Of a stretch of 64,000 nt of DNA, positions 36,566 to 56,995 are shown piece by piece; position 1 is the first letter of the stretch, and each line of letters begins with the position of its first letter. Under the pieces are notes generated by a model. It was not told the DNA's origin, made no database searches, and saw nothing but the letters and a program-made list of their open reading frames with translations. Source of the stretch: Caulobacter sp. 73W (GTDB lineage: Bacteria > Pseudomonadota > Alphaproteobacteria > Caulobacterales > Caulobacteraceae); the NCBI RefSeq assembly GCF_041021955.1, contig NZ_CP158375.1, forward strand, positions 1,426,001 to 1,490,000. The letters run 5' to 3'. The position numbers and the translations under genes are program-made.

Positions 36566-36592
36566 ACTGTTTGTAGTGCAAACGGTTGTCAA
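36566..36592 (-). promoter_or_regulatory. island operator and promoter of the TBDR
   Basis: Plus-strand ACTGT-N11-ACGGT occupies 36566-36586. On the minus strand TTGACA (36587-36592) abuts it, giving TTGACA, 17 bases, CAGTAT. The same -35, spacing and -10 recur before capA at 40.6 kb, so the operator fills the spacer, the classical geometry for repression. Confidence 0.65.
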
Positions 36593-37893
36593 TCAATCCG
36601 ATCGACCAGCCTGCCCTGAAGCGGCCGCCCGCAGGCCCAGAACAAGGACCGCGGCGACGGCGATGATGGCGCACAGCAGATAGATCGTGGCCGCGAAGTC
36701 GCCGGTCTGTTGGCGGATGATCCCCACCAGCGGGGTCATGATCATGCCGGCGGTGTTGCCGATCATGTTAACCACGGTGATGCCTGGGCCGGTGTCTTCA
36801 CGCCGCAGCAGCGAAACCGGAATGGCCCAGAACACCCCCTGCGCTCCGCCCAGACCCAAGCCGCCCAGCAACAGCAGGACCACCGCCCGCCAACCCGGCT
36901 CGACCAGGAAGGCGCCCAGCAGACACGCGCCGCCAAGCACGGCGGCGGCGCCCAGGTGCAGGTGTCGCTCCTGGGTGCGGTCCGAGTTCCAGGCATTGAG
37001 GATCATGCCGGCCGCCACCCCGACCCACGGCAGAGCGGAGATCACGCCGATCTGCAGGGGGGCGCCCCGGCCACCTGGCGCACGACCTGGGCCATCCAGA
37101 AGATCAGACCCTGGGCGCCGGCCAGCAGGCAGAACCAGATCGCGCAGGCGGCCCAGAAAGAGCCGCTGCGAAGGAAAAGCAGCCGTCCGGCGGGGCCGGA
37201 ACGCTCGGCCTGGTCACTGGCCGCCTCGGTGACGACCAGCGCCTTTTCCTCATCGTTCAGCCACCGCGCCGCCTCCAGGCGGTCGATAAAGACGTAATAG
37301 GCGGCGACGCCGCAGGCGATGGTGACGAGGCCCTCGACAAAGACCATGAAGCGCCAGCCCGACAGGGAGAAGAGGTGCAGGTCGGACGTCATCAGCCAGC
37401 CCGACAGCGGCGCGCCGATCACCTGCGAGATGGGGATGGCCAGCATGGTGCCGCTGATCGCCGAGGCGCGGAACCGGCGGGGCATCCACAGCGCCGCCAG
37501 ATAGGCCGCCCCGGGCGCAAAGCCCCCTTCGGCGATCCCGAGCAAAAAGCGCAGGACGTAGAAATGCTCGGGCGTGCGGATGAATGCCATCAGGGTCGCC
37601 ACCGCGCCCCAGACGATCACCGATCCCGCCACCCAGCGGCGGGCGTGGATACGCCGCAGCAGCGCGGTATGCGGATATTGCAGGGCGATGTAGCCGAGGA
37701 AGAAGAACAGGCCTGCGCCACGGCCGTACATCTCCGGCGACAGGCCGATCTCTTGGTTCATCTCCAGCGCCGCGATGGCGATGTTGGAGCGGTCCAGGGA
37801 GGACATGAAGATCAGGAAGGTGAGCGGCGCGATCAGCCGCCAGAAGATCTTGTCGCGAAGCCGGCGCTCGACCGGATTGAGGGCGGCCGACAT
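36593..37893 (-). pseudogene. MFS permease of the anion:cation symporter family, frameshifted
   Basis: A 12-helix ACS-type permease (MSSLDRSNIAIAALEMNQEIGLSPEMYGRG at the N-terminus is the family signature). The first piece stops after VVRQVAGAPPCRSA at 37042; the second starts inside it and completes the last helices (ISALPWVGVAAGMILNAW to the C-terminus). In the minus strand the break lies in a run of six C (plus-strand G at 37057-37062); seven C would read APPLQIGVISALP and join the halves into about 430 aa. A homopolymer of this kind is prone to slippage or sequencing error. Likely imported an organic acid for the island. Start MSAALNPVERR chosen with GGGGGGCTGAG upstream. Confidence 0.8.
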
Positions 37894-38006
37894 CTCAGCC
37901 CCCCGTCGCCTGCGCGGCCGCACGCATGGAAATCATCGTCATCGTCTCCTCCCGATCCGCCCGGCTTGCCGCCGATGTTTCGGACGCGTTCGTCGCGCCC
38001 AGCAAA

Positions 38007-38027
38007 TTCGTTTGCCATAAAAACAGT
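38007..38027 (+). promoter_or_regulatory. island operator, weaker copy, between MFS and cytochrome c genes
   Basis: TTCGT-N11-ACAGT; on the minus strand it reads ACTGT-N11-ACGAA with GCAAACG as in the 36.6-kb site. One half-site is good, the other degenerate. It lies in the divergent gap and could serve either gene. Confidence 0.45.
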
Positions 38028-38048
38028 AAGCACAATATCGTATCTTTC

Positions 38049-39701
38049 ATGCTGACCTCGTCACAGGCCCGATCCGCGCTCTTTTGTCTTGGTGTAGGGG
38101 CGTCCGTGCTCGGCCTCGGGCTGGGCGCGTCGGCCGTCGATCGCTCCAAGGCGCCCGGGGTGGTGGGCGACGTGGCCGGGCAGGTTCCCGCGCAGCAACA
38201 GCAGGCCCAGACCGCGCCTGTAGCGGCCAGCGCGGCCGGCGCCGCCACCCGCGACTGGGCCTCGCCCGGCGCCGGCGGGGTCCTGCCCGCGTCGGCCGAC
38301 TATCCCAACGAGACCGGTCGGCTGGGCGTGCTAAATCTGGACGGCCCCATCCGCACCAAGGGCCATCCCTTCTTCACGCCGCTGGGCGCCAACGGCCGCG
38401 CCTGCGTGACCTGCCACCAGCCGGGCGACGCGATGAGCGTGTCGGTCTCGACCATCAAGGAGCGCTGGGCGGCGACGGGCGGCAAGGACCCGCTGTTCGC
38501 GGCGGTCGACGGCTCAAACTGTCCCAGCCTGCCCCAGGGCGATCCCAGGTCCCATTCGCTGCTGCTGGAGAAGGGGCTGTTCCGCATCTTCCTGCCGTTC
38601 CCGCCGCGCGCCGCCGACGGCTCGGTCCTGAAACCGGAGTTCTCCATCGAAGTCGTGCGCGACCCGACGGGCTGCAACACCGACCCGGTTTTTGGCCTGA
38701 AGAGCGACAACCCGATGGTGTCGGTCTTCCGCCGGCCGCGCCCCCTGGCCAATGTGAAGTATCTGCTGGAGCTGCCGCACGGCGTGCCGCCCAACGACAA
38801 GTTCTTCTTCAACGACAAAACACTCCTGCCTCGGGATCCCGAGACGGGCGGCTTCGTATCGATGCAGCTTCTGTCGGACGGCCGCCAGCCGACCCTGCGC
38901 ACGCAGGCGGTCGAGGCGGCGGTCAACCACCTGCAGAAGGTCGGCGCCCCCAGCCGCGCCGAGTTGGACAAGATCATCGCCTTCGAGAAGCAGATCTATG
39001 TCGCCCAGGTCCAGGACATCGACGGCGGCGCCTTGACCGGCGACGGCGCGCCGCCCGGCCTTGGCCCACGCGCCCTGGCCGATGGAGCCCCGGCCCATCT
39101 GGCCAACAACGCGGTCAACCGCATCTTCGGCAGCTTCAAACCGTGGCTGGATGAAGCCGCCCTGCCGGGCGCGAACAAGGCCGAGCAGGCCCGCCGCGAC
39201 TTTCGCGCCTCGGCGGCGCGCGGGGCGGATATTTTCTGGCGCCGCCGGTTCATCATCAAGGATGTGGGCCAGTACAATTCCAAGGGGCTGAGCAACCCCT
39301 TCAAGCGCTCCTGCGGCTCGGGCTGCCACAACACCCTGCTGGCCGGCATGGACCTGGCGCCGGGATTCATGGACCTGGGCCTCAATACCCACCCGACCAA
39401 CGACCGGCCGGACCTGCCGCTGTTCAAGGTGACCTGCAAGGCGTCGGCTCCGCCCCAGGCCTATCTGGGCCGCACCATCTACACCTACGACCCGGGCCGG
39501 GCGCTGATCACCGGCAAGTGCGTCGATGTGGGCAGCACCATGACCCAGCAGATGCGCGGCCTGGCGGCGCGCGCGCCTTATTTCACCAACGGCTCGGCGG
39601 CCAATCTTCGCGAGCTGGTCGACTACTACGACCGCCGGTTCAACATCGGCTACAGCGAGCGCGACAAGCAGGACCTCGTCAACTTCATGAGGACGCTGTG
39701 A
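38049..39701 (+). CDS. exported di-heme cytochrome c-like protein
   Basis: Periplasmic protein of 550 aa, with a hydrophobic leader (LFCLGVGASVLGLGLGASA). One canonical heme c site CVTCH at 119-123 and a second, unusual CX3CH site (CGSGCH) at 422-427. The C-terminal part (TMTQQMRGLAARAPYFTNGSAANLRELVDYYDRRFNIG) resembles the cytochrome c peroxidase/MauG-like group, which ends with that kind of segment around a distal ligand. Could carry electrons for a periplasmic oxidation of the imported substrate. The ATG has no clear ribosome site; the leader decided the start. The stop overlaps the next gene start (GTGA). Confidence 0.75.
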   Translation: MLTSSQARSALFCLGVGASVLGLGLGASAVDRSKAPGVVGDVAGQVPAQQQQAQTAPVAASAAGAATRDWASPGAGGVLPASADYPNETGRLGVLNLDGPIRTKGHPFFTPLGANGRACVTCHQPGDAMSVSVSTIKERWAATGGKDPLFAAVDGSNCPSLPQGDPRSHSLLLEKGLFRIFLPFPPRAADGSVLKPEFSIEVVRDPTGCNTDPVFGLKSDNPMVSVFRRPRPLANVKYLLELPHGVPPNDKFFFNDKTLLPRDPETGGFVSMQLLSDGRQPTLRTQAVEAAVNHLQKVGAPSRAELDKIIAFEKQIYVAQVQDIDGGALTGDGAPPGLGPRALADGAPAHLANNAVNRIFGSFKPWLDEAALPGANKAEQARRDFRASAARGADIFWRRRFIIKDVGQYNSKGLSNPFKRSCGSGCHNTLLAGMDLAPGFMDLGLNTHPTNDRPDLPLFKVTCKASAPPQAYLGRTIYTYDPGRALITGKCVDVGSTMTQQMRGLAARAPYFTNGSAANLRELVDYYDRRFNIGYSERDKQDLVNFMRTL

Positions 39702-40534: not shown

Positions 40535-40558
40535 CCACCCCGCTCAACGAACCGCCGA

Positions 40559-40587
40559 TTGACAACTGTATATATCACAAACAGTAT
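40559..40587 (+). promoter_or_regulatory. island operator and promoter of the first capA operon
   Basis: TTGACA at 40559-40564 is followed at once by ACTGT-N11-ACAGT (40565-40585), so that the 17-base spacer and the -10 hexamer CAGTAT lie in the operator. This is the best-formed copy of the motif and matches the 36.6-kb promoter base for base in layout. Confidence 0.68.
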
Positions 40588-40705
40588 TTCTTCATAACAA
40601 TCCAGCCGAGCGGCCAACGCTCATGCGGACGTGGGGAGATACAAGCGTGATCGTCACCAATTCATCAGGGCTGGGCGCAGCCTCGCGCCGGATCGGCGAG
40701 CAGCC

Positions 40706-41869
40706 ATGAGCAGCGCGCGCTTCTACGCCGTCGCCGACATCGGGCCAGACCGTGACGACCCGCGCGAGTGCTTTGCTCTGGTGCGCGACGAACTTCGCAA
40801 GGCCGATATCGCCTTTTCCCAACTGGAAGTGAACCTCACCGAACGCGGCGCCCGCCTGCCCCAGGTGCGCCACACCCATCGCGCCAAGGCCTCCAGCGCC
40901 GCGGCGATGAGGGACGCCGGCTTCACCGTCGTGTCGTTCAGCGGCAACCACTGCATGGACTGGGGCCGAGACGGCTTCTTCGACACCATCGACAACCTCA
41001 AGAGCGCGGGCCTGGACGTGGCGGGGGTGGGGGCCGATATCGCGCAGGCGCGCACGCCGGTGATCCAGGAGGCCAACGGGATCAAGGTCGCGTTCCTCGC
41101 CTACAACTCCATTCTGCCGGCCAACTACTGGGCCGAAGCTGATCGGCCTGGATGCGCGCCCATGCGCGCCTGGACGATCTACGAGCAGATCGAGCCCGAT
41201 CAGCCGGGCACCCCCTGCCGCGTCCACACCTACGCCAATCGCGACGACCTGGCGTCGATGGCCGCCGACATCAAGGCCGCCCGTCAGCAAGCCGACGTGG
41301 TGGCGGTGTCGATACACTGGGGCATCCACTTCATCCCCGCTGTCCTGGCCGACTATCAGCAGGAGGTCGCGCACGCCGCCGTCGAGGCAGGCGCCGACAT
41401 CATCCTTGGCCACCACGCCCACATCCTGAAGGGGGTCGAGGTCTATCGCGGCAAGCCGATCTTCTACTCGATGGGCAACTTCGCCATCGATCTGCGCATG
41501 ACGCCCGAGCACGCCAAGGGAAAGGGCTTTCGAGAAATCCAGGCTCTCAGCCCCGGCTGGGAGCCCGACTTCGGCAGCCTCTACAACTTCCCGCCGGACT
41601 CGCGCATGACCATGGTTGTCACCGCTGACGCCACCGCGCAGGGCCTGACCAATGTCGGCTTTCTGCCCGCCTTCATCAATCGCGACGCGCAGCCCGAGAT
41701 CATGAAGCCGGGGGACGAGCGCTTCGACAAGATCGTCGACTACATGCGCTGGGCTAGTCAGGCGGCCGGGCTGAACGCCCGCTTCACGCCAAGCGGGGAG
41801 ACCGTGCTGGTCGACGCCCAGCCTGACCTCGACGCCCCTTCCACCCCCGCCGCGGAGACCGCCCGATGA
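40706..41869 (+). CDS. CapA-family metallophosphoesterase-fold protein, first copy
   Basis: Protein of 387 aa of the CapA/PgsA family (calcineurin-like fold). Motifs: VADIGPDRDDPRE, FSGNHCMDWG, VSIHWGIHF and GHHAHILKGVEVYRGKPIFYSMGNF, which supply the metal-binding Asn/His set. It has no signal peptide or membrane anchor, unlike classic CapA of poly-gamma-glutamate capsule synthesis, and no capB/capC neighbours are present. It heads an operon with a permease and a MmgE/PrpD protein and has a paralogue at 61.6 kb in the same island. A catabolic phosphoesterase or hydrolase role is an inference. Confidence 0.8.
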   Translation: MSSARFYAVADIGPDRDDPRECFALVRDELRKADIAFSQLEVNLTERGARLPQVRHTHRAKASSAAAMRDAGFTVVSFSGNHCMDWGRDGFFDTIDNLKSAGLDVAGVGADIAQARTPVIQEANGIKVAFLAYNSILPANYWAEADRPGCAPMRAWTIYEQIEPDQPGTPCRVHTYANRDDLASMAADIKAARQQADVVAVSIHWGIHFIPAVLADYQQEVAHAAVEAGADIILGHHAHILKGVEVYRGKPIFYSMGNFAIDLRMTPEHAKGKGFREIQALSPGWEPDFGSLYNFPPDSRMTMVVTADATAQGLTNVGFLPAFINRDAQPEIMKPGDERFDKIVDYMRWASQAAGLNARFTPSGETVLVDAQPDLDAPSTPAAETAR

Positions 41870-42915
41870 ACCTGCTCAACCGGACGCCCCTGCTGGTCGT
41901 CGTCGCGCTCTACATGCTGACCTACATTCCCTACATGGTCATCACCAAGCAGCTGTCGAGCAGCCCGGCGGCGGCGCTTGGCAGGCCGCTGACCGGACTG
42001 GAGATCCTGCCGGCCACCCTGATCGTCAGCGGCGTCTTCACCTTCATCTTCATCGCCTGGTCGGGCTGGTGGCGCGCCGCCAACCAGCGCCGGCTGCTGG
42101 GACTGGATGTGCCCTTCCCCACGCGCTGGACGTTCCTGTCGGGCGTCTGCACGGCGCTGGTCCTGTTCACCGTGCCGATGTCGCTGACCTTCGAGGGCGT
42201 GAGCATCCCGTTCATCCAGCTTTTGATGCGCGGCGACGTTCTGCTGCTGGCGCCGCTGGTCGACATCGCCTTCCGCCGCAAGGTGGCGTGGTACTCGTGG
42301 GTGGCGTTGGGCCTGGTGGCGATCGGCCTGTTCCTGACCATCCGCCAGCGCGGCGGGCTGCACCTGCCGCCCTTGGCGATCGGCACCATCGTTCTCTACA
42401 CCATCGGCTATTTTGGCCGCCTGGCGGTGATGACCCGCGTCTCCAAGTCGGGCGATCCGGAGAGCATCAAGCGCTACTTCGTCGAGGAGAAGCTGATCGG
42501 CATTCCCATGGCCGTGGTCTTCCTGGCCATGATCCCGCTGCTGGGGCTGGGCGGTCAGGCCTCGGAGCTTTCCTTCGGCTTCTTTGGGGTTTGGGGAAGC
42601 GCGCAGATCTGGCCGATCCTGGTGCTCTCAGCCCTGCTGTTCGTGGTCTCGGTCTTCGCCGCCGTCATCCTGCTCAATCCGCGTGAAAACACCTTCTGCG
42701 TGCCGATGGAACGCTCTGCGAGCATCGTGGCCGGGATCGCCGCCTCCTTCATCCTGGCCATGGCGTTCGGCTTGCCGATGCCGACCTCGGCCGAGATCGC
42801 CGGCGCCCTGCTGATGATCGCCGCCGTCGTCCTACTGTCGGTCGCCCCCTTGCTCGAAAAGCGCCGCGCGCCGGTTTCGCCCAAGCTTCAGGCCGCCACC
42901 GAGGAGCCGTCGTGA
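41866..42915 (+). CDS. multispan membrane protein, DMT/EamA-like
   Basis: Inner-membrane protein of 349 aa with about ten hydrophobic helices, beginning PLLVVVALYMLTYIPYMVITKQL. The two-fold arrangement and the RGDVLLLAPLVDIAF and ERSASIVAGIAASFILAMAFG segments are reminiscent of drug/metabolite (EamA-type) transporters, but I see no diagnostic motif. Overlaps capA (ATGA) and the MmgE gene (GTGA), so all three are coupled. Possibly moves the substrate or product of the flanking enzymes. Confidence 0.65.
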   Translation: MNLLNRTPLLVVVALYMLTYIPYMVITKQLSSSPAAALGRPLTGLEILPATLIVSGVFTFIFIAWSGWWRAANQRRLLGLDVPFPTRWTFLSGVCTALVLFTVPMSLTFEGVSIPFIQLLMRGDVLLLAPLVDIAFRRKVAWYSWVALGLVAIGLFLTIRQRGGLHLPPLAIGTIVLYTIGYFGRLAVMTRVSKSGDPESIKRYFVEEKLIGIPMAVVFLAMIPLLGLGGQASELSFGFFGVWGSAQIWPILVLSALLFVVSVFAAVILLNPRENTFCVPMERSASIVAGIAASFILAMAFGLPMPTSAEIAGALLMIAAVVLLSVAPLLEKRRAPVSPKLQAATEEPS

Positions 42916-44318
42916 GCTCAGGCGAAGGCCTTACTCGGCAGGTCGCCCGACACATCGCTGGCAGCCGGTTCGAACAGCTGTCGCCTCAAGCGCTGAGGAT
43001 GACCCGCCTTTCGCTGCTGGACGCCGTAGGCGTGACCCTGGCGGCGAGCCGCCTGGGCGAGGGGGTCGCGGCCTTCGCCGACACGGTCGCCGAGACCGGA
43101 GGCGCGGCTCAGGCCAGCGTCGCGGGGTTCGGATTCAAGAGCTCGATCCTGGGGGCGGTGCTGGTCAACGGCGCCGCGGCCCACGCCCTGGATTTCGAGG
43201 ACGCCTATGACGGCGCGCCGATCCACCCCAACGCCGCCTGTGTTCCGGTGGCCCTGGCCCTGACCGAGCACCTGGACCTCTCGGGCCAGGAGCTTTTGAC
43301 CGCGCTGGCGGTCGGCTGCGATCTGGTCTGTCGCCTCGGCCTGGCGCTGAAGATCAATCCGGACGAGGCCGGCTGGTATCCGCCGCCGATCCTCAGCACC
43401 TTTGGAGCGGCGGCGGTGGGGGCCAGGCTCCTTGGGCTGAACGAGGATGAGACGGTCAACGCCCTGGCGCTGGCGCTCAACCAGGCGACGGCCACCGCGC
43501 AGTTCAAGACCGCGCCGGGCTCCACCCTGCGCTCGGTCCGCGACGCCTTTCCCGCTCATGCCGGCCTGCTGGCCGCCCTGCTGGCCAAGCGCGGCGTCCT
43601 GGGTTTCGACGGCGCACTTGAAGGCAAGGCGGGCCTCTTCTCGCTGTTCGCACAGGGCCAGTATGACCCCGACATCATCCTGGATGATCTGGGGAGCCGT
43701 TTCAGCGGCGAGCGCCTGAGCTTCAAGCCCTGGCCCAGTTGCCGTGGAACCCACGCCTTCATCGAGGCGGCCCTGGCCTTGCAGCGAGAGCACGGATTCA
43801 CCGCCGACGAGGTGGAGGCCATGGTGTTCACCGGCGGCAAGGTGCAGCAGATGCTGGCCGAGCCGGCGGCGCAAAAGAGCGCGCCCAAGACCGCCATCGA
43901 CGCCAAGTTCAGCCTGCCGTTCTCCACCGCCGCCGCCTTGATCGACGGCGAGGTGACGCTGGCCACATACGGTCCCTCCAGACTGGTGGATCCCACGATC
44001 CTGGAACTGGCGGCGCGCTTCTCCTACGTCCTCGATCCGGCCGCCACCCTGGCTGACGCCGCATCCGGGGAACTTGGCCTGGTCTTGCGTTCAGGCCGTC
44101 GCCTGCACAGGCGGATCAGCCATCCGCTGGGGGCCCCGCAAAATCCAATGAGCGAGCAGGACATCCTCGCCAAGTTCACCGCCTGCGCGCGCCTGTCCCG
44201 CCGCGCCCTTGCGAGCGAACAAATCCGGAGCCTGAGCGAGACGATCCTCACCCTGGATCGGATCGAGCGGCCGGGCGGGCGGCTGGCCGTGATGGCCGGC
44301 GAGGCCGACATACTGTAG
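42912..44318 (+). CDS. MmgE/PrpD family protein
   Basis: Cytoplasmic protein of 468 aa of the MmgE/PrpD fold, whose members include 2-methylcitrate dehydratase, cis-aconitate decarboxylase and epimerases. Family segments: LDAVGVTLAASRLGEG, VNGAAAHALDFEDAYDGAPIHPNAACVPVALA (the HALDFED active-site motif), RSVRDAFPAHAGLLAALLA and FKPWPSCRGTHAFIEAAL. GTG start overlapping the preceding stop. Probably dehydrates or isomerises a carboxylic acid intermediate; the substrate is not evident. Its last codons lie in the next island operator. Confidence 0.83.
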   Translation: MSSGEGLTRQVARHIAGSRFEQLSPQALRMTRLSLLDAVGVTLAASRLGEGVAAFADTVAETGGAAQASVAGFGFKSSILGAVLVNGAAAHALDFEDAYDGAPIHPNAACVPVALALTEHLDLSGQELLTALAVGCDLVCRLGLALKINPDEAGWYPPPILSTFGAAAVGARLLGLNEDETVNALALALNQATATAQFKTAPGSTLRSVRDAFPAHAGLLAALLAKRGVLGFDGALEGKAGLFSLFAQGQYDPDIILDDLGSRFSGERLSFKPWPSCRGTHAFIEAALALQREHGFTADEVEAMVFTGGKVQQMLAEPAAQKSAPKTAIDAKFSLPFSTAAALIDGEVTLATYGPSRLVDPTILELAARFSYVLDPAATLADAASGELGLVLRSGRRLHRRISHPLGAPQNPMSEQDILAKFTACARLSRRALASEQIRSLSETILTLDRIERPGGRLAVMAGEADIL

Positions 44319-44345
44319 CATAAACAAACAGTTCGGTTCTTGACA
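44312..44345 (+). promoter_or_regulatory. island operator before the second-module TBDR
   Basis: ACTGT-N11-ACAGT at 44312-44332 overlaps the MmgE stop codon; TTGACA follows at 44340-44345, so here the operator lies upstream of that -35 candidate. Its reverse complement begins ACTGTTTGT, the extended half-site of the island motif. Confidence 0.6.
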
Positions 44346-44431
44346 ATTTGCGCATCGCCGATGACGTTGCGTCAGAGACGCCTCATCGAAAACCGCTGCT
44401 TGAACAGCGGTATGGCGTTCGGGGAGAGAAC

Positions 44432-47128
44432 ATGAACCATCCGCTCGTCGCGCCCGTCCGGCGCAAGACCCAATGGCTTTGCGCCAGCGCCCTGGCCGCC
44501 GCCGTCATCGCGCCCGGCGCGGCCTTGGCCCAGGCCGATCAGCCCATGGACACGGCCGTCGAGGAGATCGTGGTCACCGGCACCTCGATCCGGGGCGTGG
44601 CCCCGGTCGGCGCGCCCTCGCGTCCCATCGGTCAGGAGGAGTTGCAGGCCTCCGGCGTGGTCAGCACCGCCGACATCGTCCGCGCCCTGCCCCAGTTCAT
44701 CAGCCTCGGCGCTCAGGAAGGCCAGGGCGGCCAGACCCAGAACGCGGCGGCCAACGTCACCCAGGGCACCGGCGTCAATCTGCGCGGCCTGGGCACCGGT
44801 TCGACCCTGGTCCTGCTCAACGGCCGCCGCCTGTCGCCCAGCGGCGTCGACTGGCAGTTCAACGATGTATCGATGTTCCCGAGCGGCGCCCTGCAGCGGG
44901 TCGAGGTCGTCGCCGACGGCGCTTCGGCCATCTACGGCTCGGACGCCGTTGCCGGCGTGGTCAACTTCATCTTCCAGAGCCGCTTCGACGGCGCCCGCAC
45001 CTCGGCCAGCGCCGGCTTCGCCGACGGGGTCGAGCAATATCAGTTCGGCCAGACCTTCGGCAAAACCTGGAGCAGCGGCGACGTCTTCTTCGCCTACGAG
45101 CATTTCGAGCGCACGCCGCTGGACGCCGCGGATCGCGACTTCCTGTCGGCCGATCTTCGCCCCTTCGGCGGCCCTGACCGCCGGGTGACCAACGCCAACC
45201 CCGGCACCATCGTGGTCAGCGGCGTCACCTACGCCATTCCCACTGGCCAGAATGGGGTCGGCCTGTCGCCCAGCCGCCTGGTGGCCGGCACATCCAACCT
45301 GGGCGATCCGGCCCAGAGCCGTGACTTTCTGGCTCGTCAGAACCGCGAGAGCGTCGTCCTGTCCGTTCGCCAGGAACTGACCGACCGCCTGTCGGTCTCT
45401 TACGAGGGCTTCTACGGCACGCGCGACTTCAAGAACCGCGGCGGCTCGGCCGCGGGTGCGGCTGGCGCCGTGGCGGCGCTGGTGGTGCCGCGCTCCAACC
45501 CGTTCTTCGTGCACCCGACCAATCCGGCGGCGGCCTCGGTGACGGTCAACTACGACTTCGTCAACGACTTCGCCTCGTACAGCCATGGCCGCGAGTCGGT
45601 GTTCCAGAACGCGATCGCCGCGAAGTACGACCTGTTCGGCGACTGGATCGCCGAGGCGTCCTTCGCCAACAGCCGCTCCGATTCCGGGCGCCGCGCCGAA
45701 GGCCAGCTGCGCACGGTGAACCTGCCCTCCGTCCTGGCCGACACCAATCCGGCGACCGCCTTCAATCCGTTCGGGGACCGCGTGGCCCAGAACCCCGCCA
45801 CCCTGGCGCGACTGATCGGCTTCTCGGACCTAAAGACCAGCTACATTCTCGACGACTTCAATTTCAAGGTCAGCGGCACGCTGTTCAACTTGCCCGGCGG
45901 TGCGGTCAAGGCCGCGCTGGGCGCCGAGGCCTACTGGGCCAGCGGCCGCTCCAACCAGGTGCGCAACACCACCACGGCCGCGCCGGTCACAACGTTGCAC
46001 AGCCGCGTCACGCGCGACGTCAAGGCGGTGTTCGGCGAGATTTTCGTGCCGCTCATCGGGTCGCAGAACGCCATGCCGTTCGCCCAGCGCCTCGTGCTGT
46101 CGGCGGCGGCGCGATACGAGGACTATTCCGACTTCGGCCGCACCACCAATCCGAAGATCGGCCTGACCTGGGATCCGGTCTCCTCGCTGTCCCTGCGCGC
46201 CAGCTACGGCACCTCGTTCCGCGCCCCGACGCTCAAGGACATCGATGCGGCGGGCAGCGGCACCTACAACGTCGTCGACTTCATTGATCCGCGCTCGACC
46301 CAGGCCAACGGCCTCAGCCACGGCATCGAGCTTCTGGGCGGCCGCCCTGGGATCTCGCCGGAAGAGGCCGAGACCATCTCGGTTGGCGGCGATTTCGCCC
46401 CCACCTCGGTCCCCGGCCTGAAGCTGTCGGCGACTTACTACGCCGTCGACTACAAGAACCGCATCGATACCCTGCCCTACGCCACCACCCTGGCGAACCC
46501 GACGCTGCTGGGCCAATACATCACGCGCAATCCAAGCCCTGCTCTTCTGACCGATATCTACGCCTCGCCGTTCTACAAGGGCACGCCCGAGCCTTTCGGC
46601 AACTTCGTGCTGATCGTCGACAGCCGCCGCAAGAACCTTGGCGGCTTCAAGCAGACCGGCCTGGACCTTTCGGCCCAGTACGACTTCACCACCGGCCTGG
46701 GCGACTGGCGCGTGCGCGGCGACTGGACCGAGATCCTGAGCGCCAAGACCTCGCTTCTGCCAGGCTCCAACTTCGTGGATGTCCTGGACACCATCAATAA
46801 TCCGGTCAGCACGCGGGTGCGTCTGGCCGCCGGCTGGAGCCGCGATGGCTGGTCGCTGGACGGCTTCGTCAATCACGTGGGCTCCTACACCAACACCCTG
46901 GTGACGCCGAACGCCAAGGTCGACGCCTGGACCACCGTCGACCTGACCGCCGCCTATGTCGTGCAGAGCAGCTCCAGGCTGCTGCAGGGCGTGCGCCTGG
47001 CGGTCAGCGCCCAGAACGTCTTCGACGAGGATCCGCCCGTGGTCATCAACGGTCTGATGGCCTTCGACAGCGCCAACGCCAGCGCCATGGGCCGTTTCGT
47101 GAACTTCAGCATCGCCAAGCAATGGTGA
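44432..47128 (+). CDS. TonB-dependent receptor, large, first of a paralogous pair
   Basis: Outer-membrane receptor of 898 aa. Signal peptide around LCASALAAAVIAPGAALA, TonB box VEEIVVTGTSIRGV, plug with LRGLGTGSTLVLLNGRRLSPSG and LQRVEVVADGASAIYGSDAVAGVVNFIF, barrel ending MGRFVNFSIAKQW. This VTGTSIRGVAPVG class with a GSTLVLLNGRR plug is typical of carbohydrate/aromatic-compound receptors. GGGGAGAG sits 3 bases before the ATG. Closely parallel to the 896-aa receptor at 57.1 kb. Overlaps the tannase gene, so both come from one transcript. Confidence 0.9.
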   Translation: MNHPLVAPVRRKTQWLCASALAAAVIAPGAALAQADQPMDTAVEEIVVTGTSIRGVAPVGAPSRPIGQEELQASGVVSTADIVRALPQFISLGAQEGQGGQTQNAAANVTQGTGVNLRGLGTGSTLVLLNGRRLSPSGVDWQFNDVSMFPSGALQRVEVVADGASAIYGSDAVAGVVNFIFQSRFDGARTSASAGFADGVEQYQFGQTFGKTWSSGDVFFAYEHFERTPLDAADRDFLSADLRPFGGPDRRVTNANPGTIVVSGVTYAIPTGQNGVGLSPSRLVAGTSNLGDPAQSRDFLARQNRESVVLSVRQELTDRLSVSYEGFYGTRDFKNRGGSAAGAAGAVAALVVPRSNPFFVHPTNPAAASVTVNYDFVNDFASYSHGRESVFQNAIAAKYDLFGDWIAEASFANSRSDSGRRAEGQLRTVNLPSVLADTNPATAFNPFGDRVAQNPATLARLIGFSDLKTSYILDDFNFKVSGTLFNLPGGAVKAALGAEAYWASGRSNQVRNTTTAAPVTTLHSRVTRDVKAVFGEIFVPLIGSQNAMPFAQRLVLSAAARYEDYSDFGRTTNPKIGLTWDPVSSLSLRASYGTSFRAPTLKDIDAAGSGTYNVVDFIDPRSTQANGLSHGIELLGGRPGISPEEAETISVGGDFAPTSVPGLKLSATYYAVDYKNRIDTLPYATTLANPTLLGQYITRNPSPALLTDIYASPFYKGTPEPFGNFVLIVDSRRKNLGGFKQTGLDLSAQYDFTTGLGDWRVRGDWTEILSAKTSLLPGSNFVDVLDTINNPVSTRVRLAAGWSRDGWSLDGFVNHVGSYTNTLVTPNAKVDAWTTVDLTAAYVVQSSSRLLQGVRLAVSAQNVFDEDPPVVINGLMAFDSANASAMGRFVNFSIAKQW

Positions 47129-48693: not shown

Positions 48694-48701
48694 GCGTTCC
48701 C

Positions 48702-49907: not shown

Positions 49908-49929
49908 GGGGTCAGGGCGCTCAGTTCGT

Positions 49930-51202
49930 CTAGTCGCCCACGCTTGGCCTTCCCAGACGCAGGACGGTGTCGGCGCGGGTCGCGATCAAGCGGGAGAAGC
50001 GACGTAGGTCTTCGCACTCGAAGCCACTGTGGGCGAGCCCATCGGTGACCAGGCCGAGCTGTTGAATGACTTGAGAGGCGAGCGCCCGAGCGCGGCGTTC
50101 TACAAAAGCTGGGGCCATGCCGATCTCTGCGCCGAAGACGCGCCAGGTGTCGGTCTCGAAATCTTCCAACTTGCCCTGTTTGCCGATCTTCATCGCCAGC
50201 TTAGCGTGAACTTCGGGGTAGGCGGCCGTGCACATCAGGTCGTAGAGCGGCGCCAGTTCGATGCCACCGTGTGCGTAGAGCAGGCTGTAGTTTTTGCCGC
50301 GAGCGTCGGCGTTTCCGACGATCAGATTGAAAATCGCCGCGTCCAGCAGCGCCAACACTGCAGGCGCGGCCGGCTGGCAAACCGCTCGGACCAGCGCAAA
50401 ACAGTCTGCGAAGATCGGCCCTCCTTCGGCGGCGTACTTGTGCTCGGGCGAGATGCCAAGCGCCTGACAGAAATCCTCCTGATGGAGGCGAGCGATCACG
50501 CCATCAGCGCCGATCACTCGGTCGTGTCGGGTGACAAGCAGAAAGATGCGTTCGCCAACTCTACGAGGCTCCACTGGCGCCGTCGGCAGCCCCACAGCGC
50601 TGGCCAAGCGCATCGCCAACGCTTCGTTCTGCGTCATCGCGGGCCACATCGCACTGGCCGGCTTGAGGATGTGGGTGCTGGGCTGGCCAGGCGCAGGCAG
50701 GGCTATTGCGCCATCAACCAAGGACGACAGGCAGCTTTTCCTGAGCGCCCGCTAAAGAAAGGCTCACCCCCTGCGCCCCCGCCAGGAGCGGGCGCTTGGG
50801 GAGTTCATCCAAGATTTCGAGCAGCCTCTCATCACTAAGGGGCTTTGTGGCGCGCAGTCCCTTGGGCTGAGGCGGGGTTTCTCCTTGACGCCAAAGCGTG
50901 AGCGCGCCCGCAACGTCGCCGCCCAAACGTTCCAGAAGGCCGAAGTCGTTTTGCTGGGATACGCCAAGCGCGCGGGCGACCTTCTCGCGCTGCCACTGTT
51001 CCGGCAGTAATCCCGCGAAGAATGAGCGTGTCGCGCGGCGGCTGAAGACGCCGCGCTGCGCAGGCAGTGAAACGGAGACAGGCGGGCGGGTCGGATCGGC
51101 GAGCCAGCTATCTTCATAGGCAAAGCCTATGTCGCCATTCTCATCCAGCATCAGCTGGCCCACGGGAGCCTCGCCCCACCAGACGGTCAAGGCTTGCTTC
51201 AT
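49930..51202 (-). pseudogene. hipA: HipA-family serine/threonine kinase toxin, frameshifted
   Basis: The N-terminal piece (stop at 50714) has the HipA N1 and kinase start (SFFAGLLPEQWQREKVARALGV; LAGAQEKLPVVL). The second piece carries the ATP-binding STHILKP, catalytic NADARGKN and YDLMC segments. The N-terminal piece runs to VVLG-stop, while the next frame continues VDGAIALPAPGQPSTHILKP, the expected junction; removing one G around 50718-50720 rejoins them into about 420 aa. In functional modules HipA phosphorylates tRNA synthetase GltX and is held by HipB. As written it cannot make a full kinase. Confidence 0.82.
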
Positions 51203-51427: not shown

Positions 51428-51433
51428 GGAAAC

Positions 51434-51545: not shown

Positions 51546-51566
51546 ACTTTCCATTTTTCTGAGCGG

Positions 51567-51585
51567 CGCGGGACATCGTCCCGCG
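51567..51585 (-). terminator. hairpin downstream of the HgdB-like gene
   Basis: A perfect 8-bp stem (CGCGGGAC/GTCCCGCG) with a 3-base loop lies 64 bases past the stop of the HgdB-like gene, just before the hip operators. There is no U-run after it, so terminator function is tentative. Confidence 0.35.
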
Positions 51586-51648
51586 AGGATCGTTCGCGAT
51601 GAGGCGGGCCTACGGGCGAGCCGGCTGAGCGCCGATTAGGCGAGAGAG

Positions 51649-54054
51649 CTAGCGCCTCTGCCCCTCGCGACCGGCCACGACGTCCTCGATGAAGGCCGTC
51701 ACCCGGCCTTCCAAGGCGTCGCCTTCGGCGCTCATATTGCCCATGGGCAGACGCAATACGGGCACGCCCGCGCGTTCCAGCGCCTCCAGGACAAAGGGGT
51801 CGGCGTCGTCGATCGCCACCGCGCCGTGGACGCCGTGGGTCCTGGCTTCCTTGACGTGCCAGGCGCCGGCCCAGGTGGGCATGCGAAGTTCGTCGCCCAT
51901 GGTCACGAAGCGGGCGGCAAGGGCACGCAGGACGTCCTGCTCACCTTCGAAAGCGCGCAGGTAACCGTCGGCGGCGAGGCCCAGATACATCGACCAGACG
52001 AAGACCGCCCCGTGGCTTTCCTCCCAGCGCTGATAGAAGCCCATGTCGCTCCAGAGGCCGCGCCCGACCCACATCAGCCTGACCCGCTCGCCCGGACAGG
52101 CGGCTTCGCCAGCGGCCGCTCGCGCGGCGACTTCCTCATAGAATCGCTTGGCGGCGTCGCGGCCCCAGACCGTGCCGCGATGCCATTGCGGCACCATGGT
52201 CGCCGGCATGGTGTCGGCGATGCCGGCCGGGGCCGGGACGGTGGCGGCGATCAGGTCGCGGGTGCGGCGGTAATAGTCCTCCTGTTCGTTGACCAGGGCC
52301 ATCACCTCGACGAAGCGGTCCATCTGGAACTTGCGTCCCGTGACCGCCTCCAGGCGCTCGATGCTGGCCGACAAATGGGCCGTCATCAGGTCGAGCCGCT
52401 CCGGCTCCAGGGTCGCGTCCCAGCGCTCGGGCAGATCGTCCCACCAGTCGGTGGGAATGTCCCAGCGGCTGTCGATGGTTCGCGGGAAGAACAGCAGGGT
52501 CGCGTCCGTCTCCCTGGCCCAGGCCTCGAAGAGCTTGCTTCCTGAGTCCGAGGCCGTGGTCAGGGACAGGATGTCCGGCTTGGGCAGGCCGCCCCAGGCG
52601 CCGCTCGCCGGATCGGGATCAAGCGCGGCGGCCAGGCCTTGGGCGCTATAGCCTTCGACGTCGGTCGGATAGTCGGCGCCGCGCAGCAGGGCGTTGTGCC
52701 GCCGCCCCTGCTGCTTGGCGGCCACGATTGAGGCCCACCACTGATTGACCACATAGGGCACGTCCATTGCCCGCAGGATTTCCTGCGGCGCGTCGGCGTT
52801 GACCACGGCGAAGGGGCTATCTTGGGCGCGGGCCTGAACATCGGCGAACCAGTCGCGCTGCCAGGCGCCGAAGTCGGACGTCGAGGCCAGCGCCTTGCGG
52901 CTGCGGCGGCCGTCGCTTTCGGGCCGAGGATTCTTGCCGGCGGAGGGAGCGGATGCCGGGGCTGAAACCGCCAGCGGCGACGCCTCTTGCGGCCCATCGC
53001 TCCAGAAGCTGGCGAAGACCTGCGCCAGACGCTGCAACTCGGCCGTGTCCGGCGCAGCGTTGGTCTTCAGGCGCAGGAGCGGCACGCCGAGCGGCTGCAG
53101 GGCGCGGACGAGATCATGGAGGTCCCAGGGCGCGGACTCATCGCCCGCAAGACGTAGATGGATCACGGCGTCGACGCCGAGCGCCTTGGCCTGCGAGGCC
53201 AGAAGCGCGGCGCGTTCTCGGCTCGACTGGCGAGGCGAGCCGGACGGCGCCGCTCGCCAGCGGGTGATCAGGGCTTCGAAGGGATCGCCGGTCTCGTCCA
53301 GATCGCGCTCGGCGACCGGCGCGCCCCACAGATGATCCTCACCGACGATCACGCAGCCGCTCGCCTCGATCAGGGCGTAGAGGGCGCTGGTTTCCTGCGG
53401 GGCGCCGGTGACGAGAACCCTTCGACCGCCAAGCGGCGAAGCGCCTGCGTGTCGCTCCGCCGCCTGGCTGATCAGGCGCTCGCCCTCGGTGACCGACACG
53501 CTTCCCAAGGCGGCGATCAGGTCAAGCGCTTCAACACCGCCCATGGTCGGCTGGGCCTGGGCGCGCACCGCTAGGAGCTGGCGCAGGCTGCGTCGCTGGG
53601 CGTTGGCGCGGACGATCTGCGCCGACAGCGCCTCGGCCTTGATCGACGCGCCGCTGAGCGCTTCCAGCCAGCCGGTGAACTGGGCCAGCCGGGCGCGATT
53701 GTAGGCGATCGTGGGCGCATCATCGCCATGCTGGACGTCCAGGAACGCGACCGGCGCCGACACGCCGCGTCCCAGCCGATCCAGCTCGCGCAGCACGGAG
53801 AACAACTGGGCGTCCTCGACGCAGCCATGAGACAGAGCCACGCCAGCCAAGCCGCCTCCAGCCTCGGCGGCCATCAGGCTGGCGACCAGGGCGCGGGTTC
53901 GCGGGGTCTGGCCGGCCAGGGACGGATGCCCATCCTCCCGATCCTGACCATCGACATTGGCGACAAGCCGAACGGGCTCCAGACCAGCGGCCCGCACCAA
54001 CTCGGCAGGCACGTCGATGCCGACGACAGCGACGGTGCGGAGAGCCTGGTTCAT
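51649..54054 (-). CDS. fused double 2-hydroxyacyl-CoA dehydratase/benzoyl-CoA reductase-like protein
   Basis: Protein of 801 aa holding two tandem HgdB/BcrC-like halves joined by a Pro/Ala/Ser-rich linker (about 352-392). The N half starts with VGIDVPAELVRAAGLEPVRL, the family opening. The C half has PQEILRAMDVPYVVNQWWASIVAAK and GADYPTDVEGYS (about 420-470). In known enzymes two subunits bind a [4Fe-4S] cluster through Cys, one in GYSxDxC; here residues 468-477 read GYSAQGLAAA and only three or four Cys exist overall (78, 234, one near the C-terminus). No HgdC-type activator ATPase is nearby. Function is unknown; may be a radical-free or structural derivative. Coupled to the CoA-transferase by TGATG. 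Confidence 0.72.
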   Translation of the reverse strand: MNQALRTVAVVGIDVPAELVRAAGLEPVRLVANVDGQDREDGHPSLAGQTPRTRALVASLMAAEAGGGLAGVALSHGCVEDAQLFSVLRELDRLGRGVSAPVAFLDVQHGDDAPTIAYNRARLAQFTGWLEALSGASIKAEALSAQIVRANAQRRSLRQLLAVRAQAQPTMGGVEALDLIAALGSVSVTEGERLISQAAERHAGASPLGGRRVLVTGAPQETSALYALIEASGCVIVGEDHLWGAPVAERDLDETGDPFEALITRWRAAPSGSPRQSSRERAALLASQAKALGVDAVIHLRLAGDESAPWDLHDLVRALQPLGVPLLRLKTNAAPDTAELQRLAQVFASFWSDGPQEASPLAVSAPASAPSAGKNPRPESDGRRSRKALASTSDFGAWQRDWFADVQARAQDSPFAVVNADAPQEILRAMDVPYVVNQWWASIVAAKQQGRRHNALLRGADYPTDVEGYSAQGLAAALDPDPASGAWGGLPKPDILSLTTASDSGSKLFEAWARETDATLLFFPRTIDSRWDIPTDWWDDLPERWDATLEPERLDLMTAHLSASIERLEAVTGRKFQMDRFVEVMALVNEQEDYYRRTRDLIAATVPAPAGIADTMPATMVPQWHRGTVWGRDAAKRFYEEVAARAAAGEAACPGERVRLMWVGRGLWSDMGFYQRWEESHGAVFVWSMYLGLAADGYLRAFEGEQDVLRALAARFVTMGDELRMPTWAGAWHVKEARTHGVHGAVAIDDADPFVLEALERAGVPVLRLPMGNMSAEGDALEGRVTAFIEDVVAGREGQRR

Positions 54055-55316
54055 CAGATGACGCCGTCCTGCTTAAGCACGGCGATCCGGTCGGCGTCGT
54101 AGCCCGGAATCTGGCTGTAGACCGTGGTGTTGTGCTCGCCCACCGCGACGGGCAGCACAGGATCGAAGCGCGCCTGGGCGCCTGAGAAGCGGATCGGCAC
54201 GCCGGCCGTCATCAGCTTCGCCTCATCGCCATAGGCCGGATGAGAGATCGGCACGGTCTCGCCCCGCGCCACGACCCTCGGATCCACCAGGCCTTCTGTC
54301 GGCTCGCGGACGGGCGCGGCGGGCACGCCTTGCGCTTCGAGCGCCGCGACCACCTCGGCGAGCGGCAGGCGGCTGGACCAGGCCTCGATCAGGGCTTCCA
54401 GTTCGCTGGCGTTGGCCACGCGGCGGTCGCGGCTGACGAAGCGTTCGTCCTGCGCCAGTTCGGGCGCGCCCATGGCGCGGAACAGGCCGCTGGCCAGTCC
54501 GTCATGCACCGCCACCACGGCCACATAGCCGTCGGCGCACTTAAAGACGCCGAAGGGCGAAAGGCGCTGGACGGTCAGGCCGGTGCGCGCCGGCAGACCG
54601 GCGATGGCCATGGCCTGCCAGTTCTCGATGGCCACGAAGGAGGTCAGGGCGCCGAGCATGGAGACATCGACTTGCTGGCCCACGCCGGTGTTGTGGCGCT
54701 GGTTGACGGCCGCCAGGATGCCGATGACCCCGAACATCGGCGCCAGCATGTCGGCCATGGGGATGCCGATCCGCACCGGCGGCTCGCCGGGGCCGCCGCT
54801 GGTGTACATCGCCCCGCTCAGCGCCTGGATGAGCACGTCCATGGCCTTGCTGCCCTCGGCGACGTCTGCGCCGAAGCCGCTGAGCGAGCAGTAGATGATC
54901 CCCGGATTTACGGCGCGGGCGGCCTCATAGCCGACGCCCAGCCGATCGGCCGTGCCGCTGGTGAAGTTCTCGACCACGATGTCGGCGCCGCGCACCAGGT
55001 CGGCGAACACTTCCCGCGCTTTGGGGTGCTTGAGGTTGAGACTGACCCCGTGCTTGCCGCGCGCCCGGGTCAGGTGGGAGATCGACAGGTCGTCCTCGTG
55101 GCGCTTCTCCACGGTGACGCCGTCGCGGCCGACATAGGGACTGTTGTCGCGCGCCAGGTCCCCGCCACGCGGGTCCTCCACCTTGATCACCGTCGCCCCC
55201 AGGCCCGCCAGCAGCAAGGTGGCGTAGGGGCCGGCGAGCGCGCGCGTGAGGTCGATGACCCGCAGGCCTTCAAGCGGACGGGAGGCGGTGGCGGCGTTCG
55301 AGGTCACGAAATTCAT
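54054..55316 (-). CDS. CaiB/BaiF type III CoA-transferase
   Basis: Cytoplasmic enzyme of 420 aa moving CoA between acids. Family segments: PLEGLRVIDLTRALAGPYATLLLAGLGATVIKVEDP at the N-terminus, NLKHPKAREVFADLVRGADIVVENFTSGTADRLG, and KAMDVLIQALSGAM with the catalytic Asp that forms the anhydride. The ATG was chosen by the family start; a long upstream extension is low-complexity and runs through the divergent promoter. The last base of its TGA is shared with the HgdB-like start. Likely activates the acid that the fused protein works on. Confidence 0.88.
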   Translation of the reverse strand: MNFVTSNAATASRPLEGLRVIDLTRALAGPYATLLLAGLGATVIKVEDPRGGDLARDNSPYVGRDGVTVEKRHEDDLSISHLTRARGKHGVSLNLKHPKAREVFADLVRGADIVVENFTSGTADRLGVGYEAARAVNPGIIYCSLSGFGADVAEGSKAMDVLIQALSGAMYTSGGPGEPPVRIGIPMADMLAPMFGVIGILAAVNQRHNTGVGQQVDVSMLGALTSFVAIENWQAMAIAGLPARTGLTVQRLSPFGVFKCADGYVAVVAVHDGLASGLFRAMGAPELAQDERFVSRDRRVANASELEALIEAWSSRLPLAEVVAALEAQGVPAAPVREPTEGLVDPRVVARGETVPISHPAYGDEAKLMTAGVPIRFSGAQARFDPVLPVAVGEHNTTVYSQIPGYDADRIAVLKQDGVI

Positions 55317-55376
55317 CCAAGGACTGGTCGCGCTTATGGCGATGAGAGGTCCATCAAGGAGCCCCGGGCAGTTCAA

Positions 55377-55413
55377 GTCAACAAATAGTTCGTTATTCAA
55401 ACTATTTGTTGAC
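55377..55413. promoter_or_regulatory. long perfect inverted repeat in a divergent promoter
   Basis: Arms GTCAACAAATAGTT and AACTATTTGTTGAC are perfectly complementary over 14 bp with a 9-base spacer. Inside lies ATAGT-N11-ACTAT (55385-55405), the island motif. TTGAC at each outer edge could serve as a -35 box in either direction, towards the CoA-transferase and towards the hydrolase. Confidence 0.62.
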
Positions 55414-55481
55414 GCACAGATCAGGGAGAGCGAGCTTGACGCTAGGGCGGCCGGCAGAGCCGCCACGCATTGGAGGAACTC

Positions 55482-56942
55482 ATGAGCCTGCGCGGCGGCC
55501 TTTTGTTGGGCGCGGTGATGCTTGCGATCGGCGCTGCGCCCGCGCATGCGGATCAGCCGGTGCGGGTGGCGCCCGCTGCCGCCCCATCCGCTCAGGACCC
55601 CATCTGGAGCGATCCCGCCCCGCCGGGAACGCCGTTGGCCGATCGCCTGGCCGCGCGCGGCTATCTTCGTGAGGAGACGTTCCTGTCCGGCCTGGCGGGA
55701 ACTTGGCGAGCCGGTCCCGACGGAGCCGAGCGAGGCTCCCCATCCACCCGGCCTTACACGACCCGCCTCATCGTCATCCGGCCGATTTCGTCCGAGCGGT
55801 TCTCGGGGCGCGTCCATCTTGTTCCCATTCACCCCTCTGCCGGCGACACGCCTTGGGACTGGGTATCCGAACACGTCCTGGCCAACGGCGACGCTTTCGT
55901 GGCGGTGATGATCGGAGGCGATGCGCCCTCGCGCGCCCTCGCCGCTTCGGGGCGGCAGGCCGCGGCGCCGTTGATCCTCAAGGCCTTCAACCCGGCTCGC
56001 TACGCGCGGATCGACTGGCCCGACGACGACAGCGCTCGCTGGGAGGCCTTCGGTCAGACCGCCGCCGTGCTCAAGGCCGACGGCGCGATCCTCGGCGCAA
56101 GGGCCAAGAGGGTCTACGCGTCGGGCTGGTCGTTCACCGGCAGTTTTCTTCGCACCTTCATCAATGAGGGCTTCCACGATCTGTCCCGTCTCGAGGATGG
56201 CGCCGCCGCGATCGACGGCTATCTGATCGGAATTTCCGCAGGTGGTTTCATCGCCGGCTATGTGCCCCTCGACAGCCTATCGCCGGTGCGCCCAGTCGAT
56301 GATCCTCGTCGCGTCCTGCGGGCGATAGACGCGCCGGTCGTGGAGCTGATGAGCCAGAACGAGGCGCTGACCAACACCGGCGCTCAGCCGCGCGACAGCG
56401 GCGCGGTCAAGGGCGGACGCCGTCTCTATGAGCTTGGCGGCCTGACCCATGGCGACGGCCTGCGCTCAACTCCCGCCCCACAAGGCGCCTGTCCTTATCC
56501 GGCCAGCGATGTGTCCATGAGCCACTACGCCCGCGCCACGCTCGCCCGCCTCGAAGCCTGGGTCGAGCGGGGCGTGTCCCCGCCCGCGAGCCTGCGCATC
56601 GCGCGAGGGCCTGATGGAAATTTCCCCCACGATGAGAACGGCAACGTGTCCGGAGGGCTTCGCCCCGTGGAGCTCGACGTGCCGCTGGCTTCATACGCCG
56701 AAGCCAGGGACAGGCCCGAATGCACGCCGCGAGCGGGACCATCCGGAGCTTATCTCGCGATCCGCCGCATTCCGCTCTCAAAGGAGGCGCTTAACCGCCT
56801 CTACCCTGGTGGGGCGGCCGACTACCTGGCGAAGGTCCACACGGCCGTGGCGCAACGCGTGCAGGCCGGCTGGCTCTCGCGCCGCGACGCCGAGGAGGAG
56901 CTCTCGCAAGCAAGCGCCGCGGCGGCACGTGCATTTCGATAA
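55482..56942 (+). CDS. exported alpha/beta-hydrolase-domain protein
   Basis: Protein of 486 aa with signal peptide SLRGGLLLGAVMLAIGAAPAHA. It fits the long alpha/beta hydrolase domain family of proteobacteria: RLIVIRPISSERFSGRVHLVPIHPSAG, nucleophile Ser217 in ASGWSFTGSFLRTF, and a His in ELGGLTHGDG. The G-W-S-F-T-G elbow departs from GxSxG at the last position only in spacing. GGAGGAACTC precedes the ATG. Substrate unknown; the island setting suggests an ester of an aromatic acid. Between two copies of the island operator. Confidence 0.76.
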   Translation: MSLRGGLLLGAVMLAIGAAPAHADQPVRVAPAAAPSAQDPIWSDPAPPGTPLADRLAARGYLREETFLSGLAGTWRAGPDGAERGSPSTRPYTTRLIVIRPISSERFSGRVHLVPIHPSAGDTPWDWVSEHVLANGDAFVAVMIGGDAPSRALAASGRQAAAPLILKAFNPARYARIDWPDDDSARWEAFGQTAAVLKADGAILGARAKRVYASGWSFTGSFLRTFINEGFHDLSRLEDGAAAIDGYLIGISAGGFIAGYVPLDSLSPVRPVDDPRRVLRAIDAPVVELMSQNEALTNTGAQPRDSGAVKGGRRLYELGGLTHGDGLRSTPAPQGACPYPASDVSMSHYARATLARLEAWVERGVSPPASLRIARGPDGNFPHDENGNVSGGLRPVELDVPLASYAEARDRPECTPRAGPSGAYLAIRRIPLSKEALNRLYPGGAADYLAKVHTAVAQRVQAGWLSRRDAEEELSQASAAAARAFR

Positions 56943-56975
56943 CGACGCTTGCCAAAAGATTAGTTCGAGTCACAT

Positions 56976-56995
56976 ACTATTTGTGCGCATACCGT
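56976..56995 (+). promoter_or_regulatory. island operator variant before the second paired TBDR
   Basis: ACTAT-N10-ACCGT. The left half ACTATTTGT matches the extended half-site with one change; the spacer is one base shorter than in the other copies. ACATACTAT here parallels ACATACTGT at 44.3 kb. Lies 71 bases before the TBDR start. Confidence 0.5.

Follow-up and report, generated by a model that had tools for sequence, protein, structure and literature searches.

A 21-bp palindrome shared by catabolic-island and ferulate promoters of Caulobacter sp. 73W suggests a MarR-type regulon

Results

A palindromic motif at six promoter regions

We examined a 64,000-nucleotide stretch of Caulobacter sp. 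73W (the window; positions 1426001-1490000 of a genome that consists of a single contig of 4,007,162 bases), in which a catabolic island with TonB-dependent receptors, hydrolases, coenzyme A (CoA) enzymes and a MarR regulator (MarR-A) adjoins a run of ferulate genes, and in which six promoter regions share a palindromic, operator-like motif. The features are collected in Table 1.

Table 1. Putative operators and genes of the island and the adjoining ferulate run. Scores marked RM are from the relatives' matrix (see text); MFS, major facilitator superfamily; TBDR, TonB-dependent receptor; coordinates with the prefix L001 extend past the window end.
Feature	Position	Strand	Remarks
Putative operator before TBDR/ferulate gene run	36566..36586	-	RM 23.4; between TTGACA and overlapped -10-like CAGTAT
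Weaker putative operator, between split MFS gene (-) and cytochrome-c-like gene (+)	38007..38027	.	RM 19.6
Putative operator before capA/unknown/MmgE-PrpD genes	40565..40585	+	RM 25.0; between TTGACA and CAGTAT
Weakest putative operator, upstream of TTGACA and TBDR-tannase-P450 run	44312..44332	+	RM 15.1
Putative operator of divergent promoters, CoA-transferase (-)/alpha/beta hydrolase (+)	55385..55405	.	RM 33.6; TTGAC on both sides
Putative operator before TBDR-CocE-capA-MarR-A	56960..56980	+	RM 25.0
MarR regulator, end of ferulate run	26774..27247	-	Pfam
Aromatic-acid MFS transporter-like	27267..28598	-	TIGR00895, 322 bits, below cut-off 418.55
Amidohydrolase family protein, same gene run	28595..29629	-	Pfam
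ADP-forming acyl-CoA synthetase	29508..31664	-	Pfam ATP-grasp_5/Succ_CoA_lig; PDB matches are ADP-forming CoA ligases
Feruloyl/p-hydroxycinnamoyl-CoA hydratase-lyase	31671..32510	-	NF006588, 468.5 bits, above cut-off 276; 7xwc, 1.3e-132
Vanillin dehydrogenase-like	32577..34085	-	Best PDB match 9ihb, vanillin dehydrogenase, 2.8e-237
TBDR	34168..36549	-	Pfam; true start probably further in
Cytochrome-c-like, one CxxCH and one CxxxCH	37926..39701	+	From translation; start probably near 38049
CapA-like (PGA_cap)	40631..41869	+	
Protein without Pfam or NCBIfam match at E 0.001	41866..42915	+	
MmgE/PrpD family	42912..44318	+	
TBDR	44348..47128	+	Start probably near 44432
Tannase/feruloyl esterase family	47122..48693	+	Pfam, 7.5e-92
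Cytochrome P450	48594..49907	+	
HGD/benzoyl-CoA-reductase-like fused protein	51649..54054	-	
Family III CoA-transferase	54054..55316	-	Start inferred
Abhydrolase_10 hydrolase	55470..56942	+	
TBDR	57066..59756	+	
CocE/NonD hydrolase	59821..61620	+	
CapA-like (PGA_cap)	61617..62750	+	
MarR-A, proposed regulator, encoded at the end of its own likely target operon	62793..63293	+	Pfam MarR_2, 2.9e-12
MFS transporter, runs past window (L001:3290-4708)	63290..64000	-	Putative operator L001:4778-4798
MarR-B, MarR-A paralogue just outside window	L001:4862-5458		

The motif is a palindrome of 21 bp, with 8-bp arms and a 5-bp spacer, and it can be read at all six places named in a preliminary description of this DNA. 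Its best written form is ATAGTTTG-N5-CAAACTAT, with ACTGTTTG/CAAACAGT as a variant. Five of the six coordinates first reported (36566, 38007, 40565, 44312 and 55385) are exact; at the sixth, 56976, the motif is present but is better placed at 56960-56980, since 56976 begins 16 bp further on. Similarly, the 5-bp arms and 10-11-base spacer originally proposed describe the outer part of the palindrome rather than its actual arms and spacer. The placement in intergenic gaps or against a stop codon agrees with our reading: five sites are fully intergenic and site 44312 covers the last 7 bases of the MmgE/PrpD gene, with some of the gene starts used in this check set by us. Site 38007 lies ~20 bp ahead of the likely ATG of the cytochrome-c-like gene, and a seventh strong site (L001:4778-4798) is found 778 bp past the window end, ahead of the MFS gene.

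At sites 36566 and 40565 the palindrome fills the gap between TTGACA and CAGTAT, 17 bp apart, and at sites 44312 and 55385 a TTGAC element follows just downstream, all of these elements having been matched by eye. Both placements would be compatible with steric repression. An extra half-site also occurs 16 bp past the palindrome: 13 of 88 flanks score at least 4 at this offset, compared with 0 to 3 at 33 other offsets, the 13 not being independent because the rows include the near-copies G003, G046 and G056. All seven MFS promoters of the Caulobacter genomes with MarR-A are among the 13 (here, L001:4762-4798), and 56976 corresponds to a further half-site register 16 bp from the 56960 palindrome. 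As a guess, a second MarR dimer might bind there.

Comparison with chance

Two matrices were used. The first was built from five sites of the window genome (G000) and served to find sites in relatives; the second, the relatives' matrix, drew on 19 distinct sites in six other Caulobacter genomes. With the relatives' matrix, exactly six places in the window score 9 or more, all of them the reported ones, and control stretches of the same chromosome, 228 kb in all, contain no match at 10 or more (top score 9.8). This test is not wholly independent, as the 19 sites were originally picked with the window-genome matrix; neither matrix drew on the L080 sites or on those in ten ferulate loci, all discussed below. 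The first matrix finds five matches at 10 or more in the same 228 kb, one of them at 18.5, to which the relatives' matrix gives 7.8. Among 300 dinucleotide shuffles of the window, 12 contained a single match at 15 or more, and no shuffle contained a second.

Pattern scans of the whole genome are more equivocal. With up to three mismatches allowed, the first pattern, derived from window sites, matches five separate places. Four belong to the island (36566 with one mismatch, 40565 with two, 44312 and L001:4778 with three each), and the fifth, also with three, is at contig position 3,853,611. These amount to nine strand matches, compared with 12 for the reversed control, and the count alone therefore proves nothing; the evidence lies instead in the matches with one or two mismatches, in the clustering of four of the five places within 29 kb, and in the new site before the MFS gene. 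Modelled on 55385 and L001:4778, a second pattern yields 22 strand matches compared with seven for its control; these fall on five distinct island places and on 11 elsewhere, every one of the 11 with three mismatches. Taken with the recurrence at orthologous promoters described next, the relatives' matrix, the 228 kb control and the window shuffles indicate that the shared motif is real and above chance, as had been proposed.

Conservation in relatives

Close relatives of MarR-A (E 3.5e-63 or better) are present in six of the 74 other Caulobacter genomes, and orthologous promoters bear the motif in all six. The conserved block around MarR-A comprises the genes for the HGD-like protein, CoA-transferase, TBDR, CocE, CapA, MarR-A and MFS transporter (in G046 it ends at a contig end), with putative operators between the CoA-transferase and TBDR genes and before the MFS gene. 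G035 additionally has the TBDR-tannase-P450 and capA-unknown-PrpD runs, and the motif is present there too: at L025:2090 (score 26.8), between MarR-B and the capA orthologue, as the counterpart of site 40565, and at L024:9029, before a relative of the TBDR gene at 44348, as a 44312-type site.

The most detailed comparison is with G023, where the seven sites keep 130 of 147 bases, compared with 526 of 747 in their flanks. Site 36566 keeps 19 of 21 bases (flank, 43 of 70), and all four differences at site 55385 fall within the 5-bp spacer. Sites 38007, 40565 and 56960 have counterparts at L080:12869 (score 14.2), L080:15446 (28.1) and L017:5014, respectively.

Outside Caulobacter, Phenylobacterium and other loci with relatives of MarR-A or MarR-B often bear a related site, in some cases with arms GTATG-N5-CATAC. 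Eight of 11 such loci have a site scoring at least 15 with the relatives' matrix. Some of the sites precede island orthologues (e.g. L035:18118, before a CoA-transferase gene); for L043:8647 this is not obvious. In L031, L034 and L037, MarR-A relatives stand behind a different gene set, in which HGD-like and CoA-transferase-like genes each occur twice.

Link to ferulate genes

The preliminary description had excluded the ferulate genes from the motif's range and had proposed one unknown substrate for the regulon. Neither proposal is supported. Site 36566 heads a same-strand run in which the TBDR gene is followed, after gaps of 82 and 66 bp, by the vanillin dehydrogenase and hydratase-lyase genes (vdh-ech), and from this arrangement it probably controls both as part of an operon, although one of the gaps may hold a promoter that strict criteria did not pick up. 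The acyl-CoA synthetase of the run is, judging by its neighbors, probably a feruloyl-CoA synthetase.

In relatives the motif stands right before the same genes. The hydratase-lyase is encoded in 18 of 75 Caulobacter genomes, 11 of which lack MarR-A. Ten of these 11 have a site (scores, 14.8 to 26.4) immediately ahead of vdh-ech or of MarR-D-vdh-ech, MarR-D being a further MarR regulator that all ten possess; the eleventh, G019, has no site, and MarR-D was not found in it. Overall, MarR-D accompanies the lyase in 15 of 18 genomes and was not found in G000, G023 and G019. In G000 and G023, it is the island operator motif that stands ahead of the ferulate run. A suspicion that inner stops had broken MarR-D in four genomes was dropped when, in the three checked (G031, G046 and G056), the stops proved to lie at the frame end. 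In addition, G026 (L069:12789, score 17.6) and G047 (L070:3371, score 14.1) have a further site between divergent tannase and TBDR genes. The motif thus looks like a ferulate operator of the genus Caulobacter.

Candidate regulators

Pfam MarR_2 and MarR domains (winged helix) are found above cut-off in both MarR-A and MarR-B. The nearest solved structure to MarR-A is CouR of Rhodopseudomonas palustris (6c28, 2.7e-18). Across the 75 Caulobacter genomes, with up to one mismatch allowed in the motif and MarR-A scored as present at E 1e-20 or better, the strict motif is found in six of seven genomes with MarR-A and in one of 68 without it (Fisher, 2.4e-7); in the seventh, G031, the sites miss the strict pattern and score up to 31.4. 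MarR-A is thus the best single candidate for the regulator. Close orthologues of MarR-B are limited to four of the 75 genomes (G000, G023, G031 and G035). In a tree, MarR groups A, B, D and C/E are separate and supported, with an uncertain deep order. The MarR encoded at 26774-27247 was considered as the common binder and rejected: it is found at E 1e-15 or better in three of the 75 genomes, with close orthologues only in G000 and G023, and so cannot explain the motif elsewhere.

Other genes of the island

The HGD-like protein resembles the BzdN and BzdO halves fused and has three cysteines only. Its cysteines were compared by eye with those of BzdN in an alignment, and seven orthologues were also aligned; it is probably not a radical dehydratase. 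We considered that it might form an aryllactyl-CoA dehydratase with the CoA-transferase, by analogy with FldA/FldBC, and rejected the idea: the PF01869 activator was not found in the genome, and only one of the aligned BzdN cysteines has a cysteine opposite it.

The cytochrome-c-like protein has a weak match to the di-heme family TIGR04039 (20.3 bits; cut-off 362.85). An MFS gene at 36593-37923 (-) is split into two overlapping frames by a frameshift or sequencing error. At 49930-51202 (-), separate Couple_hipA and HipA_C frames overlap by eight bases and are perhaps a split HipA or a HipS/HipT-like pair; no operator scoring 9 or more with the relatives' matrix lies between them.

Discussion

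The motif, its non-random positions, its conservation and its link to ferulate genes are established at the level of sequence. From these we infer which MarR binds, that it represses, and the effector, substrate and operon structure. On balance we think it probable that the sites serve as operators for a single regulon, under a MarR-type repressor, through which plant phenolic (hydroxycinnamate) esters are taken up and degraded. The single regulon of the preliminary description is well supported by the relatives' matrix, by the orthologous promoters and by conservation of the site bases above their flanks. In the model we propose, a MarR dimer, most likely of MarR-A and perhaps together with MarR-B, would bind the palindrome between or beside the -35 and -10 elements and block transcription. 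On entry of the substrate, the repressor would be freed by an effector, for which a hydroxycinnamate or the corresponding CoA thioester is the probable choice, and the receptors, esterases, CoA enzymes, vanillin-forming ferulate genes and MFS transporter would then be switched on jointly. MarR-A, as the last gene of a likely target operon, would itself be induced. Chlorogenate-type or other hydroxycinnamate esters would suit the combination of a tannase-family gene with ferulate genes.

Several observations weigh against this model. Site 44312 is weak, and in G023 its arms are kept but the spacer is one base shorter. A strict promoter scan of 26700-36700 found none, so that the hexamers named above stand as matches made by eye. 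In three of the 11 non-Caulobacter loci scanned (L033, L036 and L040), no site reaches a score of 11. The similarity of MarR-A to CouR is moderate, and co-occurrence cannot separate MarR-A from the island that contains it. Looser copies of the motif precede ferulate genes in genomes without MarR-A, and for the strict match in G048 (L066:6879), also a genome without MarR-A, the 14 kb examined contain no island gene. Finally, the roles of the CapA, CocE, CoA-transferase, HGD-like and PrpD proteins in the catabolism of phenolic esters are unexplained.

This last point is central to an alternative in which the island substrate is unrelated to hydroxycinnamates (e.g. peptide-like or a polyester) and the shared operator reflects only the relatedness of MarR paralogues. 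We know of no role for these five kinds of protein in ferulate catabolism, and the association of MarR-D with the lyase also speaks for this alternative. In G000 and G023, however, the ferulate run itself stands behind the island motif with no MarR-D found, a tannase/feruloyl esterase-family gene lies inside the regulon, and G026 and G047, which lack the island, have the site between tannase and TBDR genes; we regard an unrelated substrate as rather unlikely. A different division of labor, with MarR-B as the main repressor and another job for MarR-A, would agree with the position of MarR-B next to the seventh site, with a recognition helix that by eye is similar to that of MarR-A, and with the strong site directly upstream of the MarR-B gene in G031 (L022:16971) and in G035, the last two of which also tell against our choice of regulator. 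This arrangement is less likely still, given that close MarR-B orthologues are present in four of the seven Caulobacter genomes with the island motif, compared with seven of seven for MarR-A, and that MarR-B is missing from G003, G056 and G046, where the motif is present. A chance origin of the matches, as A/T-rich palindromes of intergenic DNA, could be argued from the excess of reversed-control matches at three mismatches and from the control match at 18.5 with the first matrix, but the relatives' matrix, the shuffles and the conservation of sites over flanks count against it, and recurrence at orthologous promoters in our view refutes it, leaving it a negligible probability.

The regulon proposed here for MarR-A would be larger than those known for FerC, CouR, HcaR and FerR. 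FerC (Sphingobium sp. SYK-6), CouR (R. palustris and R. jostii), HcaR and FerR are MarR regulators of hydroxycinnamate genes, several responding to hydroxycinnamoyl-CoA thioesters (PMC4737184, PMC10458429), with R. palustris CouR a p-coumaroyl-CoA-responsive repressor (PMC10458429). The CouR box of R. jostii is cATTGA-N5-TCAATg and differs from the island operator. The best NCBIfam match of MarR-A is to Saro_0803, the MarR protein of Novosphingobium aromaticivorans associated with resveratrol and nov1, but its score against that equivalog (NF053777, 94.7 bits) is under the curated cut-off of 200, and the inverted repeat at nov1, GCAATA...TATTGC (PMC10046596), is unlike the island motif. PheR, an IclR-type repressor of Sphingobium, was set aside, its motif being different (PMC13273656).

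The closest operator is that of DesR, a MarR-type protein of Sphingobium sp. SYK-6 that binds GTTTGTGTCACATAC and GTTTGTGTAACATAC and responds to vanillate and syringate (PMC6888825). These DesR sites (IR-B and IR-M) and the island operators appear to have a common 15-bp core, GTTTG-N5-CATAC/CAAAC; the DesR inverted repeat GTTTGTGTMACATAC equals the island core, except for one base in G003, GTTTGTGCAACATAC, and the spacer varies. Like DesR, the island regulator would serve aromatic catabolism and act at several promoters, including that of its own gene. The likeness noted here is one of operators, and the targets of DesR are desB, ligM and desR rather than TBDR, esterase or CoA genes (PMC6888825). 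The window genome contains no exact match to the DesR pattern, and a class-wide scan for the DesR repeat matched one of 385 genomes, in an A/T-rich stretch (L045) that we judged a chance match. The DesR-like core, the CouR-like MarR-A and the differing boxes of the other regulators together would place the island operator and its regulator within an already known kind of MarR system. A literature search at the level of listings and abstract openings, with most subscription papers outside its coverage, found no report of this regulon.

More tentatively, and as a possibility that we rate below even, the regulon may define a catabolic system, not described before, that acts on a conjugated plant phenolic. 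The genus-wide ferulate operator would then have been co-opted at several additional promoters, serving three receptors, two CapA-like proteins, CocE, a CoA-transferase and a cysteine-poor HGD-like protein, with MarR paralogues sharing one operator and a tandem half-site 16 bp off at the MFS promoter. The proposed regulon would tie conserved genes without an assigned role (CapA-like, CocE-like, CoA-transferase and HGD-like) by one switch to hydroxycinnamate breakdown, and thereby make them testable targets. It also suggests a simple route by which a regulon may grow, through reuse of the operator type of a ferulate operon across an island.

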